The notes below the pieces were generated by a model, which worked only from the letters and a program-made list of their open reading frames with translations, had not been told where the DNA came from and searched no databases. Below, in pieces: positions 13,304-19,553 of a stretch of DNA of 35,795 bases (position 1 is its first letter; every line of letters starts with the position of its first letter). This DNA is from Flavobacteriales bacterium (lineage in GTDB: Bacteria; Bacteroidota; Bacteroidia; Flavobacteriales_D; Parvicellaceae). Location of the stretch: positions 1-35,795 of the forward strand of contig JAQXDK010000039.1 of assembly GCA_029251405.1 (NCBI GenBank), in the 5' to 3' direction. The translations under genes and the position numbers were made by a program.

Positions 13304-14035
13304 TTGAAAATTCCAAAAATAATTTTCTTTTTGTTCTTTACTTCAACAGTGTTTTGTCAAGGTCAGAACGACAAAAATCACAACATTGGCTTTTTACTGG
13401 GTTCTATTATTCCCATTAATTATTTTGGGGTTAGTGCAATAGATCTTACAGAAAATAACTCAACAATAAAATTAGAAAATAGGATTGGATACAATTTTGG
13501 GATGATTTTAAAAACAGACTATGATAAAAATTTTAGTGTAGAAGGTGGAATAGTTTTTTATCAAAGAAATTTTAAATTAACTGGAACAAGTGCAAATCAA
13601 TCCAATATTTTAAATGACACCAGCTCGTTCAGCTATATAAGTTATGGAATTCCATTACAAGCGATAATCTATGTTCAATTAGGCAATGAATTATATATGA
13701 GAAATGCTATAGGCGTTAATATAGATTTTTATGCATCTTCTGTAGCTAGCAAAGGAAATAATTTTGCAATTGATCATCTTTCTGAAAGAGCAAGGTGGAT
13801 TAATGGCTCAATAAGTGGAAATCTTGGAATTGAAAAAAGAGATTCTAAAATAGGATCCTATTATGTAGGAGCTGAAGTCAATATACCAATATCTGCAATA
13901 GCAGTGACTAAATTGAAATTCTATTATGATGGTAATACTTTTGACAGATACGATAAATTATTTCTAAGAGGAAATTATTTTGGTATCCAGTTTAAATATT
14001 ATTTGCCAGTTGGTATGGAAAACTCAAAAAATTAA
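13304..14035 (+). CDS. Small outer-membrane beta-barrel protein
   Basis: The 243-residue protein starts at a TTG. The resulting [21 protein letters not shown] is a good signal peptide with cleavage after CQ or QGQ. The rest has the alternating pattern of an eight- to twelve-strand barrel ([70 protein letters not shown]). The closing [12 protein letters not shown] is like the terminal strand of PorT/OmpA-type barrels. Specific function unknown. Its stop codon shares the tetranucleotide TTAA with the infB stop on the opposite strand. Confidence 0.65.
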
Positions 14036-16584
14036 AGTTTTCTACTCACTTCAACCTCTTCATAGGCTTCTACAATATCACCTACTCTTATATCGTTATA
14101 TTTTGCAATATTCAACCCACATTCGTATCCATTTTTAACTTCCTTCACATCATCTTTAAATCGCTTTAAAGATCCTAATTCACCAGAATAGACAACAATA
14201 CCGTCTCTTATTATCCTAACATTATGATTCCTATTAATTTTACCTTCTGTTACGTAACAACCTGCAATAGTACCGAATTTTGTAATTTTAAAAGTTTCTC
14301 TTATTTCAGCAGTACCAACAATTTCCTCTTTAAACTCTGGTGAAAGCATTCCCTCCATAGCTTCTTTAACTTCTTCAATTGCTTTGTAAATAACAGAGTA
14401 TAAACGAATATCAATTTCTTCTTTTTCAGCTATCTTACGAGCTCCCTGAGAAGGCCTTACTTGGAATCCAATAACAATTGCATCTGACGCTGAGGCTAAT
14501 AAAATATCCGATTCGGTAATTTGACCAACTGCTTTATGGATGATATTTATTTGAATAGATTCTTGAGAAAGTTTCAATAAAGAATCTGATAAAGCTTCAA
14601 TAGACCCATCAACATCTCCTTTAACTATGATATTAAGCTCTTGAAAATCTCCTAAGGCAATTCTTCTACCAATCTCATCTAATGTGATGTGTTTTGTAGT
14701 TCTTAGCCCTTGTTCTCTTTGAAGTTGTTGTCTTTTAGAAGCTATTTGCTTCATTTCTTTTTCGTCGTCTAATATATTGAAAACATCTCCTGCACTAGCA
14801 GCACCGTTCATACCAAGTACAGAAACAGGTCTGGAAGGACCAGCAGACTCAACAGGATTGCCACTTTCATCATGCATGGCTTTAATTTTACCAAATTCTT
14901 TTCCAGCAATTAGCGTATCACCTACCTTCATCGTACCATACTGCACCAACAATGTTGTAACGTAACCTCTACCTTTGTCCAAAGAAGCTTCAATTACTGT
15001 TCCTTTTGCATTTGTATCAGGATCTGCTTTTAATTCCAATAATTCAGACTCTAAAAGTACTTTTTCTAAGAGTTCATCAATACCGGTTCCATCTTTAGCA
15101 GATATTTCTTGACATTGATATTTTCCTCCCCAGTCTTCAACTAATATATTCATAGCTGATAATTCTTCTTTAATTTTGTCTGGGTTAGCTGTAGAACGGT
15201 CGCACTTATTAAGTGCAAATACCATAGGTACACCTGCAGCTTGGGAGTGATTGATGGCCTCTTTAGTTTGAGGCATAACTCTATCATCTGCAGCAATAAT
15301 AATAATAGAGACATCTGTCACCTGCGCTCCTCTTGCTCTCATTGCAGTAAATGCCTCATGTCCTGGAGTATCTAAAAAGGTTATGTCTTTTTTGTTGTGT
15401 TTTACAGAGTAAGCACCTATGTGCTGCGTTATTCCGCCAGCCTCCCCAGAAGTAACATCTGCACTCCTAATGTAATCCAAAAGAGATGTTTTTCCGTGAT
15501 CTACGTGCCCCATAACAGTAACGATAGGCGGTCTGTCCAGCATATTTTCAGGATTCTGAGAATCTTCAACAACTGAAGCGGTAACATCGGCACTAACAAA
15601 TTCTACAGTAAATCCAAATTCCTCAGCAACCATAGTAAGAGTTTCTGCATCTAATCTTTGATTAATGGATGCGAATATACCGATTGACATTAAAGTGCCT
15701 ATTACATCGTTTGGAGATTTAGACATCATGGACGCAAGTTCTGAAACCGATACAAATTCAGTTAATTTCAGTGTGCTTTTTTCTTGTTCTGAAATTAATT
15801 CTTCTATTTCCATTTTATCAGAAATAGCTTGTCTCTTTTCTCTTCTTAATTTAGAAGATTTAGATTTTCCTTTGTTACTTAACCTTGCAAGAGTTTCTTT
15901 AATTTCTTTTTGAATTTCTTCAGGAGAGGCCTCTGTTTTTTGAGGTGTTTTTGTAGTTTTTCTTTTGTCTCTAAAGACATTTTTACCTGCTTTTTCTACA
16001 TTGACTTTTTTAATTCTTTTTCTCTTTCTTTTAGATGCTTCAGAGTCTTCAGAAGGTTTAGATTTGACTGGAACTTTTGGTAGTTCTATTTTTCCTAAAA
16101 CTTTAGGACCAGTTAATTTTTTAGCCTCGGCCTTTATTGTTTCGGAAGGTTCTATCTTATTTTTATTAACTGGATCAGCAGTTTTTATTTCAGTTTTTTC
16201 TTCTTTTACCTCAACAGGCTCCTCAACAGTTTCTGCTACAGGATCAGCTTTTGGCTTCGGTGTTAAATCTATTTTACCAAGTACAGAAGGTCCAGAAAGG
16301 GCGTCGGCTTTAGCTACTATCTTTTCGATTTCTTTTTTTGGTTCTTCTTTCTTAATTGAAATGACTTTTCTTTCCGATTGGTCTATAACAACATTATCAG
16401 CTTTCTCTTTCTCAAATTTTTCTTTATGATATTCTTCTAATAATATCATATACAAGTCCTCACCAATTTTTGTGTTGGGATTAGAACTTACTTCTTTTCC
16501 TTGGGAGCCTAAAAACTCAACAATTGTTGATATTCCAACATTAAGTTCTCTTGCAACCTTACTTAGCCTTTTTACTACTGCCAT
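14032..16584 (-). CDS. infB: Translation initiation factor IF-2
   Basis: IF-2 is the GTPase that brings initiator fMet-tRNA to the ribosomal P site and promotes subunit joining. The 850-residue protein has an N-terminal helical IF2N-like segment (1-55), then a long lysine/glutamate-rich linker containing two copies of a GP-x-VLGKI motif (98-105 and 159-166). The G domain carries GHVDHGKTS (about 357-365), [13 protein letters not shown] and SAKDGTG, and domains II to IV follow to the end. All GTPase motifs are intact. It is the last gene of rimP-nusA-infB, 23 bases after nusA. Its stop codon overlaps that of the convergent outer-membrane gene. Confidence 0.97.
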
Positions 16585-16607: not shown

Positions 16608-17846
16608 TTATTTCTCAAATTCTGAGCTTAAAATCTTTAATATTTCATCTACTGTTTCTACTTCTAAATCTGTTCTTTTCACTAAATCATCTTTTCCAAT
16701 CTCTAAAACACTTTTAGCGGAATCGCATCCAATTGCTTTTAATTCGTCAATAATCCAATCATCAATTTCATCGGTGAATTCGTCTAAATCTACATCATCA
16801 ATATCTTCTGCACCTTCTCTGTATACATCAATTTCAAGCCCTGTAAGTTTAGATGCTAATTTAATATTATGTCCACCTTTACCTATGGCTTTAGAAACTT
16901 CGTCCGGCTTTAAAAAGACCTCGACTCGAGATTCCTCTTCGTTAATTTCCATATTACTAATTTTAGCAGGATTTAAAGATCGCTGTATTAGAAGTTGCAT
17001 GTTTGTTGTCCAAGGAATAACATCTATATTTTCGTTTCTAAGTTCTCTAACTATACCGTGTATTCTTGAACCGTTCATCCCCACACAAGCACCTACTGGA
17101 TCGATTCTATCATCATAAGACTCAACAGCTACTTTTGCTCTTTCACCTGGATTTCGAACAATTTTTTTAATGGTAATTAATCCATCAAAAACTTCTGGTA
17201 CTTCTTGCTCGAACAACCTCGCTAAAAATTCAGGAGCTGTTCTGGAAAGTATAATCACTGGATTATTATTTCTTAAATCCACTTTAGAAACGACTGCTCT
17301 TGTGGTGTCACCTTTTCTAAAATAATCAGAAGGTATTTGTTCCGATTTCGGTAAAATTAATTCATTACCGTCATCGTCTAAAATTAGTATTTCTCTTTTC
17401 CAAATCTGATAAACTTCACCGTTTACTATATCTCCAACTCTCTCTTTATATTTTTGATAGATACTGTCTTTTTCTAATTCTAATACTTTAGAAGCAAGAT
17501 TTTGTCTTAGTGATAAAATATTTCTCCTCCCGAAATCCTCAACTTTAACTTCTTGAGAAACTTCTTCCCCAATTTCAAAATCAGGCTCGATTTTAAGCGC
17601 TTCGCTATATTTAATTTGGGTTCCCTCGTCTTCAAAGTCCTCGTCTGGTACAATTTCTCTGTTTAACCAAATCTCTAAATCACCTTTGTCTGGATTTATA
17701 ATGACATCAACATTTTCGTCTGATCCATATTTTCTTTTTAAAGTAGATCGAAAAACATCTTCTACTATTCTCATCATGGTTACTCTATCGATATTCTTAA
17801 TTTCTTTAAATTCTGAAAAAGAGTCAATTAATTCTATTGCATTCAT
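16608..17846 (-). CDS. nusA: Transcription termination/antitermination factor NusA
   Basis: NusA binds RNA polymerase and nascent RNA and modulates pausing, termination and antitermination. The 412-residue protein has the N-terminal polymerase-binding domain (1-130), an S1 domain (about 133-200; VGDIVNGEVYQIWKREILI), and two KH domains (about 230-345; PVGACVGMNGSRIHGIVREL and VSKAIGKGGHNIKLASKL). A short helical C-terminal segment contains a helix-hairpin-helix-like DELKAIGCDSAKSVLEIG. It lacks the two acidic repeats of the E. coli protein, as usual in this phylum. It lies between rimP (9 bases) and infB (23 bases). The hairpin in front of rimP is a plausible site for feedback by this protein. 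Confidence 0.96.
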   Translation of the reverse strand: MNAIELIDSFSEFKEIKNIDRVTMMRIVEDVFRSTLKRKYGSDENVDVIINPDKGDLEIWLNREIVPDEDFEDEGTQIKYSEALKIEPDFEIGEEVSQEVKVEDFGRRNILSLRQNLASKVLELEKDSIYQKYKERVGDIVNGEVYQIWKREILILDDDGNELILPKSEQIPSDYFRKGDTTRAVVSKVDLRNNNPVIILSRTAPEFLARLFEQEVPEVFDGLITIKKIVRNPGERAKVAVESYDDRIDPVGACVGMNGSRIHGIVRELRNENIDVIPWTTNMQLLIQRSLNPAKISNMEINEEESRVEVFLKPDEVSKAIGKGGHNIKLASKLTGLEIDVYREGAEDIDDVDLDEFTDEIDDWIIDELKAIGCDSAKSVLEIGKDDLVKRTDLEVETVDEILKILSSEFEK

Positions 17847-17855
17847 AGGGTTTAT

Positions 17856-18329
17856 TTAAAATGATATAATCAGTTTAGTTTCTTTTATTTCACTCATTAG
17901 TAATTGGTGAGTGGTTTCTATTTTATCTTTTTTCTTGGTTATTTTGTTTTTTTCAATTTTAATCTCTCTCAAGAAAATTTCTTGGTCGTTGGCTTTAAGA
18001 AGTTCTCCATTTAAAACTTCGTTACTAGTTTTTGTAACAGTTACCTGATTGCCTAAATTTTTTAGATATTGTTTAGCTACTACAAATGGTTGATCTAATC
18101 CAGGAGATGAAACTTGTAAATCAAAGTCTTCTTTTTCTCTGTCTAAATTATGTTCAATATTTCTACTAACACTTACACAGTCTTTCACGCTAACTCCACC
18201 ATTTAAATTATCCATTTTAACTCTAATGGAGTTTTTGGATGAGATACTAACACTTACTAAATAATTTCCATTATCGAGTTCATTTATTCTTTCTTCTGCC
18301 AACTTTATTACTTCGTTTTTTGAAATCAT
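17856..18329 (-). CDS. rimP: Ribosome maturation factor RimP
   Basis: RimP is needed for maturation of the 30S ribosomal subunit. The 157-residue protein has the typical two-domain form. The N-terminal alpha/beta domain includes SIRVKMDNLNGGVSVKDCVSVSRNIEHNLD (a variant of the family's DGVTVDDC region) and DFDLQVSSPGLDQPF (the family's VSSPGLDRPL motif, about residues 79-90). The C-terminal SH3-like barrel follows (NQVTVTK, LNGELLKANDQEIFL). It opens the operon with nusA and infB. The predicted promoter (18390-18421) leaves a leader of about 55 nt that contains a terminator-like hairpin ending 12 bases before the start codon. Confidence 0.93.
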   Translation of the reverse strand: MISKNEVIKLAEERINELDNGNYLVSVSISSKNSIRVKMDNLNGGVSVKDCVSVSRNIEHNLDREKEDFDLQVSSPGLDQPFVVAKQYLKNLGNQVTVTKTSNEVLNGELLKANDQEIFLREIKIEKNKITKKKDKIETTHQLLMSEIKETKLIISF

Positions 18330-18336
18330 AGTAAGT

Positions 18337-18367
18337 AAAAAAAAGAGGGGACTTTCGTCCCCTCTTT
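18337..18367 (-). terminator. Terminator-like hairpin in the rimP leader (possible attenuator)
   Basis: On the minus strand an 11-bp perfect stem (arms 18357-18367 and 18342-18352) closes a GAAA tetraloop and runs into a T tract (18337-18344, eight T in total). It has every feature of an intrinsic terminator. It lies between the predicted rimP start site and the rimP ATG at 18329, with no minus-strand gene upstream that it could otherwise terminate. On the plus strand it is not followed by a T tract. Confidence 0.72.
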
Positions 18368-18389
18368 AGTTTTCATCTTTATAATGATC

Positions 18390-18421
18390 CAAAAGTACAT
18401 TATTTTAAGAAGCCTTACAAA
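18390..18421 (-). promoter_or_regulatory. Promoter of the rimP-nusA-infB operon
   Basis: On the minus strand TTTG (18418-18421), a 20-nt spacer and TACTTTTG (18390-18397) match the Bacteroidota consensus fully. The start site is expected near 18383, about 15 bases before the leader hairpin. Confidence 0.68.
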
Positions 18422-18464
18422 TAAAACGTAAAAAAACTATGTACTTCAACTATTACCTTGTGGT

Positions 18465-19553
18465 TTGATGATAGATAAAATAGTATATTCTTTAATAAAA
18501 GGTGTTTCTATTAGAACAAAGAAACTGATAGCAGATCAGGCTGATGATTCAGAATCAATTCTTAGAGAATTAAGATTAAAAATGATAAATCTTAATACCA
18601 AATCTAGTTACAAGGTATTGAATCAACTTAACTCTAAAAATATATACAAGGAGGCGCAAACAATATTAAATATATGCACAGAAAATAATATTGAAATCAT
18701 TTTTTATAAAGAAGAAAACTATCCAAAAAATTTAATACAATGCCAAGATGCTCCCTTTCTTATATACTGTAAGGGCAAAAAACACTCAAATAACATCCCA
18801 TTATTATCTGTTGTTGGCACACGTGACTGCAGTGATTATGGCTTGGGACAATGTAAAGATTTCATTTCTTATTTAGCAAATTATAATATTGGATTGGTGA
18901 GCGGTTTGGCCTATGGAATTGATATTTATACCCATAAAATAGCGAACCAGTTAGATGTACCGAATTATGCAGTTTTAGGAAGTGGGATATTAAATATTTA
19001 TCCTAAAAAACATTTTACAGAAAGCGAACGGACTGCTGAAAATGGGATGATAATTTCTGAATTCACTCCTTTTTCTTCTCCAAAGAGCTATCATTTTCCT
19101 CAACGCAATAGAATTATTGCAGGAATGAGTATGTGCACTGTGGTGGTAGAATCTCCTATTAAAGGAGGAGCAATAATAACGGCATGTTTAGCAAATGACT
19201 ACAATAGAGATGTATTTGCAATCCCAGGAAATAACAATCAATCAACTTCAAAAGGAACCAATACTTTAATAGAAAAAAATCAAGCAGCTATTTTAAATAA
19301 TCCAGAACAAATTATAGATTTATTAGGGTTGAGCACCAGCAATAAAAATCCAGTAGGAACACAAAATGACATTCAATTAAATTCACAAGAAACTATAATT
19401 TATGAGCTAATTGCTAAGAGTAAAGACCTATCTTTCAATAAAATACAGATGGCAAGTAATTTTCCAACTTCTTATCTGAATGTGATTCTAACTAATTTAG
19501 AACTTAAAGAACTTATTACACCAAAATTTGGTAATTTTTACAACTTAAAATAA
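18465..19553 (+). CDS. dprA: DNA processing protein DprA/Smf
   Basis: DprA binds incoming single-stranded DNA during natural transformation and loads RecA onto it. The 362-residue protein has an N-terminal helical region, then the Rossmann-like DprA domain: LSVVGTRDCSDYG, NIGLVSGLAYGIDIYTHKIA, AVLGSGILNIYPKKH, FPQRNRIIAGMS, VVESPIKGGAIITA and DVFAIPGN. A C-terminal winged-helix region (about 310-360) completes it. All conserved blocks are present. It is divergent from rimP with 135 bases between. No strong promoter of its own is seen. The permease gene follows after 33 bases. Confidence 0.95.
   Translation: MMIDKIVYSLIKGVSIRTKKLIADQADDSESILRELRLKMINLNTKSSYKVLNQLNSKNIYKEAQTILNICTENNIEIIFYKEENYPKNLIQCQDAPFLIYCKGKKHSNNIPLLSVVGTRDCSDYGLGQCKDFISYLANYNIGLVSGLAYGIDIYTHKIANQLDVPNYAVLGSGILNIYPKKHFTESERTAENGMIISEFTPFSSPKSYHFPQRNRIIAGMSMCTVVVESPIKGGAIITACLANDYNRDVFAIPGNNNQSTSKGTNTLIEKNQAAILNNPEQIIDLLGLSTSNKNPVGTQNDIQLNSQETIIYELIAKSKDLSFNKIQMASNFPTSYLNVILTNLELKELITPKFGNFYNLK

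Follow-up and report, generated by a model that had tools for sequence, protein, structure and literature searches.

The rimP-leader, which has been described in Firmicutes and Gammaproteobacteria, carries a terminator hairpin with a U tract in the 5′ UTR of the rimP-nusA-infB operon, and feedback by NusA was proposed for it (Naville and Gautheret 2010, PMC2965389). In the main text of that paper no word begins with "Bacteroid", its supplementary species tables lying outside this search. According to a review, NusA of B. subtilis controls its own expression by stimulating termination in the leader (PMC12288461), and E. coli mutants in which NusA termination is reduced have higher levels of the operon transcripts (PMC6511841). 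In the rimP-nusA-infB operon of S. agalactiae (gbs0413-gbs0418), transcription terminates 31 nt past the start at a predicted intrinsic terminator; the short terminated RNA and the long transcript have a common start site, and NusA feedback was proposed (PMC4448216). Within the Bacteroidota, a conserved, structured 5′ element without an Rfam hit was reported at rimP in Flavobacterium psychrophilum and also in other genera of Flavobacteriaceae (PMC9723704). This element concerns the same phylum and the same gene as the present study, but it is described in one sentence, in a section without sequence, mechanism or link to NusA (PMC9723704). A fuller account for Bacteroidota was not found in the literature that we searched, which included few subscription journals and no supplements.

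We analyzed a stretch of 35,795 nucleotides (hereafter, the window), which forms one part of a 2.23-Mb genome of 53 contigs from a Flavobacteriales bacterium. Among named genomes, the closest relatives of its RimP come from MAGs of marine-type Crocinitomicaceae and Flavobacteriales. Pfam and NCBIfam searches bore out the expected rimP-nusA-infB operon with dprA diverging from it, and the 135 bases between the dprA and rimP ORFs contain a promoter and a hairpin. The features of the locus are as follows:

18390-18421, minus strand: Bacteroidota-type promoter of rimP-nusA-infB, consisting of TTTG at 18421-18418, N20 and the -7 box TACTTTTG at 18397-18390
18368-18389, minus strand: short A/T-rich leader of 22 bases from promoter to stem, the segment with the lowest conservation across 10 close loci
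18342-18367, minus strand: leader terminator hairpin with an 11-bp stem and a GAAA loop, based on sequence, terminator scan, fold, conservation, covariation and the covariance model R1
18337-18344, minus strand: U tract of eight T, the first three of which also close the stem, based on sequence
17856-18329, minus strand: rimP, 157 aa, with its ATG at 18329, 12 nt past the hairpin (Pfam RimP_N; NCBIfam NF002531 above cut-off)
16608-17846, minus strand: nusA, 412 aa (Pfam NusA_N, S1 and KH domains; TIGR01953 above cut-off)
14032-16584, minus strand: infB (IF-2), 850 aa (Pfam and NCBIfam)
18468-19553, plus strand: dprA, the divergent neighbour, with its ATG at 18468 (TTG at 18465 in the ORF list; Pfam and NCBIfam)

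The hairpin (minus strand, 18367-18342) has the form AAAGAGGGGAC-GAAA-GTCCCCTCTTT, with 11 pairs, six of them G-C. Folded alone it reached -19.1 kcal/mol (z -4.96), a value equalled by 0/200 shuffles. A terminator scan over 2 kb returned three terminator-like sites against 0.6 expected, two of them being the same hairpin on either strand. Both the sequence and the scan agree with the original prediction of an 11-bp stem, a GAAA loop and a T run, with 12 bases to the rimP ATG. By its position relative to the promoter, the hairpin with its U tract lies in the predicted 5′ UTR of the operon, as in the rimP-leader of PMC2965389, whose G-rich 5′ arm and C-rich 3′ arm it resembles in part. The stem motif published there is GGGc(...)gCCC, compared with GGGGAC(...)GUCCCC in the window, and the rimP leader of B. 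subtilis is 180 nt long (PMC2965389), compared with about 45-50 nt here. The leader of S. agalactiae is equally very compact, but it belongs to a Firmicute and has RNA-seq evidence (PMC4448216), whereas the leader in the window is known from sequence alone. The very compact version that had been proposed was already on record as a promoter-plus-hairpin form in that organism, at 31 nt (PMC4448216).

The Rfam family for rimP (RF01770; gathering threshold, 47 bits) gave no match in the window and was not among the 59 matches listed in a lenient search. In 20 relatives it matched once, below the cut-off (0/20 above), and among 14 control genomes E. coli alone matched. The lenient Rfam matches that did appear (sraA and others) scored under their gathering values and were dismissed as chance likeness to terminators.

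Upstream of rimP, a GGGGAC(N4-5)GUCCCC hairpin was present in 15/15 loci from named genomes, with one 3′-arm C changed to U in L007. These loci had been picked by RimP similarity alone, and they reach Bacteroidales loci with 34-42% RimP identity. Across 10 close loci, mean pairwise identity was 96% in the hairpin, 89% in the -7 region, 84% in the T tract, 83% in the -33 region, 78-82% in the rimP coding sequence and 54% in the leader between promoter and stem, figures for which the segment borders were displaced by one base from the -7 box proper. Lack of the hairpin in close relatives had been named as a result that would speak against the prediction; instead, the hairpin is the best conserved of the segments compared in these 10 loci.

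For comparison at the level of the class, we assembled 62 non-redundant loci: the window, 15 loci found by RimP similarity, 19 relatives, and loci from 27/38 same-order and same-class genomes that came from a phylum-wide RimP_N search, the remaining 11/38 being left out, as were nine rows without a locus in the relatives' set. Ten duplicate loci (L113, L115-L122 and L133) were removed ahead of this count, and the hairpin played no part in choosing any of the 62. For L011-L016 the class was read from record titles, and those of L011 and L012 go no further than Bacteroidota. Under a strict terminator test (at least seven unbroken pairs, four of them G-C, and at least five T in nine), 57/62 loci passed, compared with 7/1240 shuffles (20 per region). 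By eye, weaker hairpins are carried by the remaining five, L014, L061, L123, L129 and L132. L014 keeps the stem and has a broken T run, failing the strict test and passing a looser U-tract count; the hairpin of L061 is imperfect; and those of L129 and L132 have six pairs. Past the last G or C of the stem, at least five T in nine were found in 61/62 loci, the sole miss being L070, whose T run was counted into the stem. Hairpin and predicted start codon lay 8-112 nt apart (median 15) in the 62 loci and 12 nt apart in the window, compared with 4-130 nt in the general form of the rimP-leader, which has no antiterminator (PMC2965389); none was predicted in the window either. In L123, just before rimP, the 5′ arm of the hairpin is duplicated (GGGGACGCGGGGAC), which gives two pairing registers for one 3′ arm.

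When the class hairpins were aligned, 90% of cells paired. Compensatory changes in the stem, which had been suggested as a check in related genomes, were indeed found: both sides had changed in 7/11 pairs (shuffled mean 4.2; 13/500 shuffles reached 7), and cells with both-side changes numbered 39, against 8.0 in shuffles (0/500 reached 39), and slid controls never exceeded 19. Alignment slips (e.g. L053, L070, L136, L139 and L140) may blur these counts.

The promoter consensus of Bacteroidota has TTTG near -33 and TAnnTTTG at -7 (PMC7366714). The site at 18421-18390, TTTG-N20-TACTTTTG, is a full-consensus promoter under this rule only; an E. coli-type promoter scan did not include it among its matches, so that the predicted "full-consensus promoter" stands in the Bacteroidota sense and falls in the other. 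The pattern matched four times in the window against 1.6 expected, and 9/100 shuffles had at least four matches. Taken alone, such a match would be evidence of little force, and the real evidence is its conservation. A -7 box of the form TAnnTT[TC][GA] lay at most 55 nt upstream of the hairpin in 61/62 class-level loci (2-8 of 61-62 in control windows of equal size), and the strict TAnnTTTG lay there in 52/62 (1-3 of 61-62 in control windows). From the -7 box to the first GGG the distance was 16-43, with a median of 28, in the 62 loci. In the window, 16-18 nt would be transcribed before the stem, assuming a start 5-7 nt past the -7 box. For the predicted leader, sequence comparison establishes the promoter box, the hairpin and the U tract, the order and spacing of these three elements, and selection for base pairing. 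The lone locus without a -7 box, L012, has a tRNA-Gln (L012:2884-2955) just upstream of its leader hairpin, an arrangement reminiscent of E. coli, whose operon carries the metY tRNA (PMC6511841). In 10 close loci, no strict TAnnTTTG box occurred on the coding strand over 500 nt counted from the start of rimP; a bypass promoter within rimP was rejected on this ground, and nusA therefore seems to depend on read-through.

Between dprA and rimP, a further block, GTTTTTTTACGTTTTATTTG (18418-18437, minus strand), is conserved and overlaps the -33 region. Its core, TTTTTACGTTWTA, also occurs upstream of rimP in L002-L010, L112, L114 and L123, and the block has one exact copy genome-wide. The block may serve the promoter as an upstream element or be bound by a regulator.

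We then extended the comparison to the phylum, in which RimP_N was present in 156/158 genomes. In classes other than that of the window, 117 genomes had a RimP match; 63 loci were examined (26 from the 30 best-scoring loci and one from each of 37 further genera) and 54 were left out. Only 33/63 of these loci passed the strict test, many of their hairpins being shorter or imperfect, a result that counts against the attenuator reading. A looser test looked for a folded hairpin at or below -8 or -10 kcal/mol plus a T tract, at most 300 nt upstream of the RimP match; -5 kcal/mol was too weak because shuffles reached 102/248 and 125/252. At -8 kcal/mol, hairpins were found in 63/63 loci of the other classes (57/252 shuffles) and in 62/62 of the class (39/248 shuffles), or 125/125 phylum loci versus 96/500 shuffles when pooled. 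The stricter -10 kcal/mol gave 57/63 (32/252 shuffles) and 62/62 (8/248), respectively. Starts of other genes gave 16/112 at -8 and 6/112 at -10 kcal/mol, in a control that used loci of at least 1700 bases and excluded 70 start regions containing the rimP leader. The background of the looser test in the other classes is sizeable (57/252 shuffles and 16/112 gene starts at -8), and the hairpin picked for L033, L041, L049, L050, L097, L100 and L107 may differ from the leader hairpin. In an earlier gene-start control with the strict test, 13/102 passed, and most of these positives look like divergent dprA starts that face the same hairpin on the other strand. With a terminator-like hairpin of at most -8 kcal/mol in 125/125 sampled loci, the element is not peculiar to this genome. 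We class it as a known kind of putative attenuator in a new lineage.

The association with rimP was also seen from the side of the hairpin. R1, a covariance model of the class hairpin, was searched blind to rimP, and its best match in the window's own genome was the window hairpin (48.4 bits; 34.7 on the opposite strand; 31.2 at the next site). At E ≤ 0.001 with strict filters, R1 had a match in 73/148 class genomes, and RimP lay just downstream on the same strand in 26/30 examined R1 loci. At least seven of the 30 loci come from genomes that supplied rows to the model; without these seven, 19/23 are next to RimP. RimP was absent from the locus in L158, L161, L162 and L165, where R1, despite good matches, may have picked up common terminators or the leaders of genes other than rimP. 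Both the limited reach (only 73/148 class genomes) and the 4/30 loci without RimP weigh against the attenuator reading. A multi-copy regulon was considered and rejected: the hairpin core has one exact copy in the genome, and the sole site with one mismatch is inside a long ORF.

With a probability of roughly 0.68, we regard the structure as a promoter-proximal transcription attenuator of rimP-nusA-infB, with NusA as the natural candidate for negative feedback. RNA polymerase would start a few bases past the -7 box and make an RNA of about 45-50 nt, in which the G-rich/C-rich hairpin and the U residues would stop a share of transcripts ahead of the start codon of rimP, and the operon mRNA would come from polymerases that pass the hairpin. 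Premature termination of the operon, as originally proposed, is well supported as a predicted function by the conservation of the promoter, the stem pairing and the U tract. No antiterminator appeared in the predicted folds, the stem being kept in both the minimum-energy and the centroid folds of two leader stretches. A leader peptide, encoded by a 16-codon frame that runs from a leader ATG through the hairpin and ends over the rimP start, was rejected, as 45/62 loci have no ATG among the 22 nt that precede the hairpin; in the other 16 loci with a leader ATG, the frames vary in length and frame, that of L016 also having 16 codons. With neither an alternative antiterminator fold nor a conserved upstream frame, a protein that targets the polymerase or the nascent hairpin would most likely determine the terminating share. 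As rimP also has no strict internal box, expression of the operon would largely hang on the fraction of polymerases passing the hairpin. Feedback through NusA would be a reasonable extrapolation from other phyla. In B. subtilis an effect of NusA is reported (PMC12288461), whereas for the window, where the leader lies upstream of nusA, we infer the effect of NusA, along with termination in the cell and its nature as feedback. High NusA would then lead to more termination and thus to less NusA, a self-limitation that is the most likely role of the attenuator and that is already known from other groups of bacteria.

A NusA-dependent terminator is expected to be weak. The strong stem and unbroken U tract of the window therefore count against NusA dependence, and they would suit a real leader terminator that is fixed, lowering operon expression by a constant factor and tuned by no factor, NusA included. 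The predicted folds, which offer no antiterminator partner, and the short leader, which has no conserved sensor region, are consistent with such a terminator as well. A weaker promoter, however, would achieve the same with less, and the presence in every sampled locus of the phylum, together with the control of the nusA leader by NusA in B. subtilis (PMC12288461), favours regulation; we consider a fixed terminator rather unlikely.

The closeness of the hairpin to the start codon (12 nt in the window; median 15 nt in the 62 loci, with predicted starts) and its well conserved stem sequence would also fit a role in translation or in the stability of the mRNA, with RimP, the ribosome or some other protein binding the hairpin. 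Against this, the distance between hairpin and start varies over the 8-112 nt given above, and the U tract, for which such a role has no need, is kept in 61/62 loci; we consider this role improbable. Even less probable is a trans-acting small RNA of 45-50 nt. Such an RNA would be made from a promoter of its own and end at its own terminator, as intergenic sRNAs in Bacteroides do (PMC7366714), but it shows no conserved seed, the part before the hairpin having 54% identity against 96% in the hairpin in 10 close loci, and the element stays beside rimP in 26/30 examined R1 loci. The short RNA of about 45 nt that had been offered as the alternative thus loses ground on account of its poorly conserved leader.

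Just past the promoter, the inverted repeat might instead be a DNA operator to which a dimeric repressor binds, given that GAGGGGAC-N4-GTCCCCTC is a good palindrome and that the 5′ arm ends exactly in GAGGGGAC in 35/57 strict loci. The loop, however, has 3, 4, 5 or 6 nt in 11, 33, 11 and 2 of the 57 strict loci, respectively, a variation that would turn the half-sites on the helix; the T tract stands on one side only; and the pairing survives sequence change between lineages, all of which makes an operator very improbable. Finally, an ordinary terminator stopping read-through from an upstream gene is scarcely credible: by a rough automatic reading of the 62 loci, the upstream ORF is codirectional in 19, and L012 has its upstream tRNA-Gln, but the upstream ORF is divergent in 37 (no call in 6), as in the window, where dprA diverges and nothing upstream needs terminating, just as first argued, and a -7 box lies at most 55 nt upstream of the hairpin in 61/62.

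Returning to the attenuator, this analysis adds how far it extends through the phylum as sampled, how tightly it is linked to a TAnnTTTG promoter, the covariation and the reversal of stem polarity. A widespread bacterial attenuator is thereby extended to a phylum with its own type of promoter. Its minimal form, namely promoter, about 20 nt, hairpin and start codon, would make a simple test bed for the action of NusA on a promoter-close terminator.

Stem sequences are lineage-specific across the phylum. In the class of the window, the G run comes first in 56/57 strict loci, and an A-U pair mostly precedes the C-G pair, in contrast to the published GGGc(...)gCCC. In the families f15 and f33, stems resemble TCGCCC/GGGCGA, with the C run first in 14/14 loci, whereas f16, f14 and f27 have GTGGG/CCCAC stems and part of f23 has GATGGGC/GCCCAT. 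The reversed polarity in some lineages lends no support to NusA reading a single fixed RNA motif, and in these sister lineages it tests the published idea of a fixed GGG...CCC motif read by a factor. Drift through G-U pairs can preserve purine-first polarity, and the class-wide sequence thus suggests recognition without proving it. We put forward only tentatively, and hold to be rather doubtful, the idea that a co-evolving factor, NusA or RimP, specifically recognizes the class-wide stem GAGGGGAC/GUCCCCUC, with specificity switched in other classes, where the stem is reversed (TCGCCC/GGGCGA) or different (AGTGGG/CCCACT). If this were true, one phylum would hold a natural series of matched leader/factor pairs. 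Within the class itself, the leader hairpin of L070 is reversed, with the C run on its 5′ arm.
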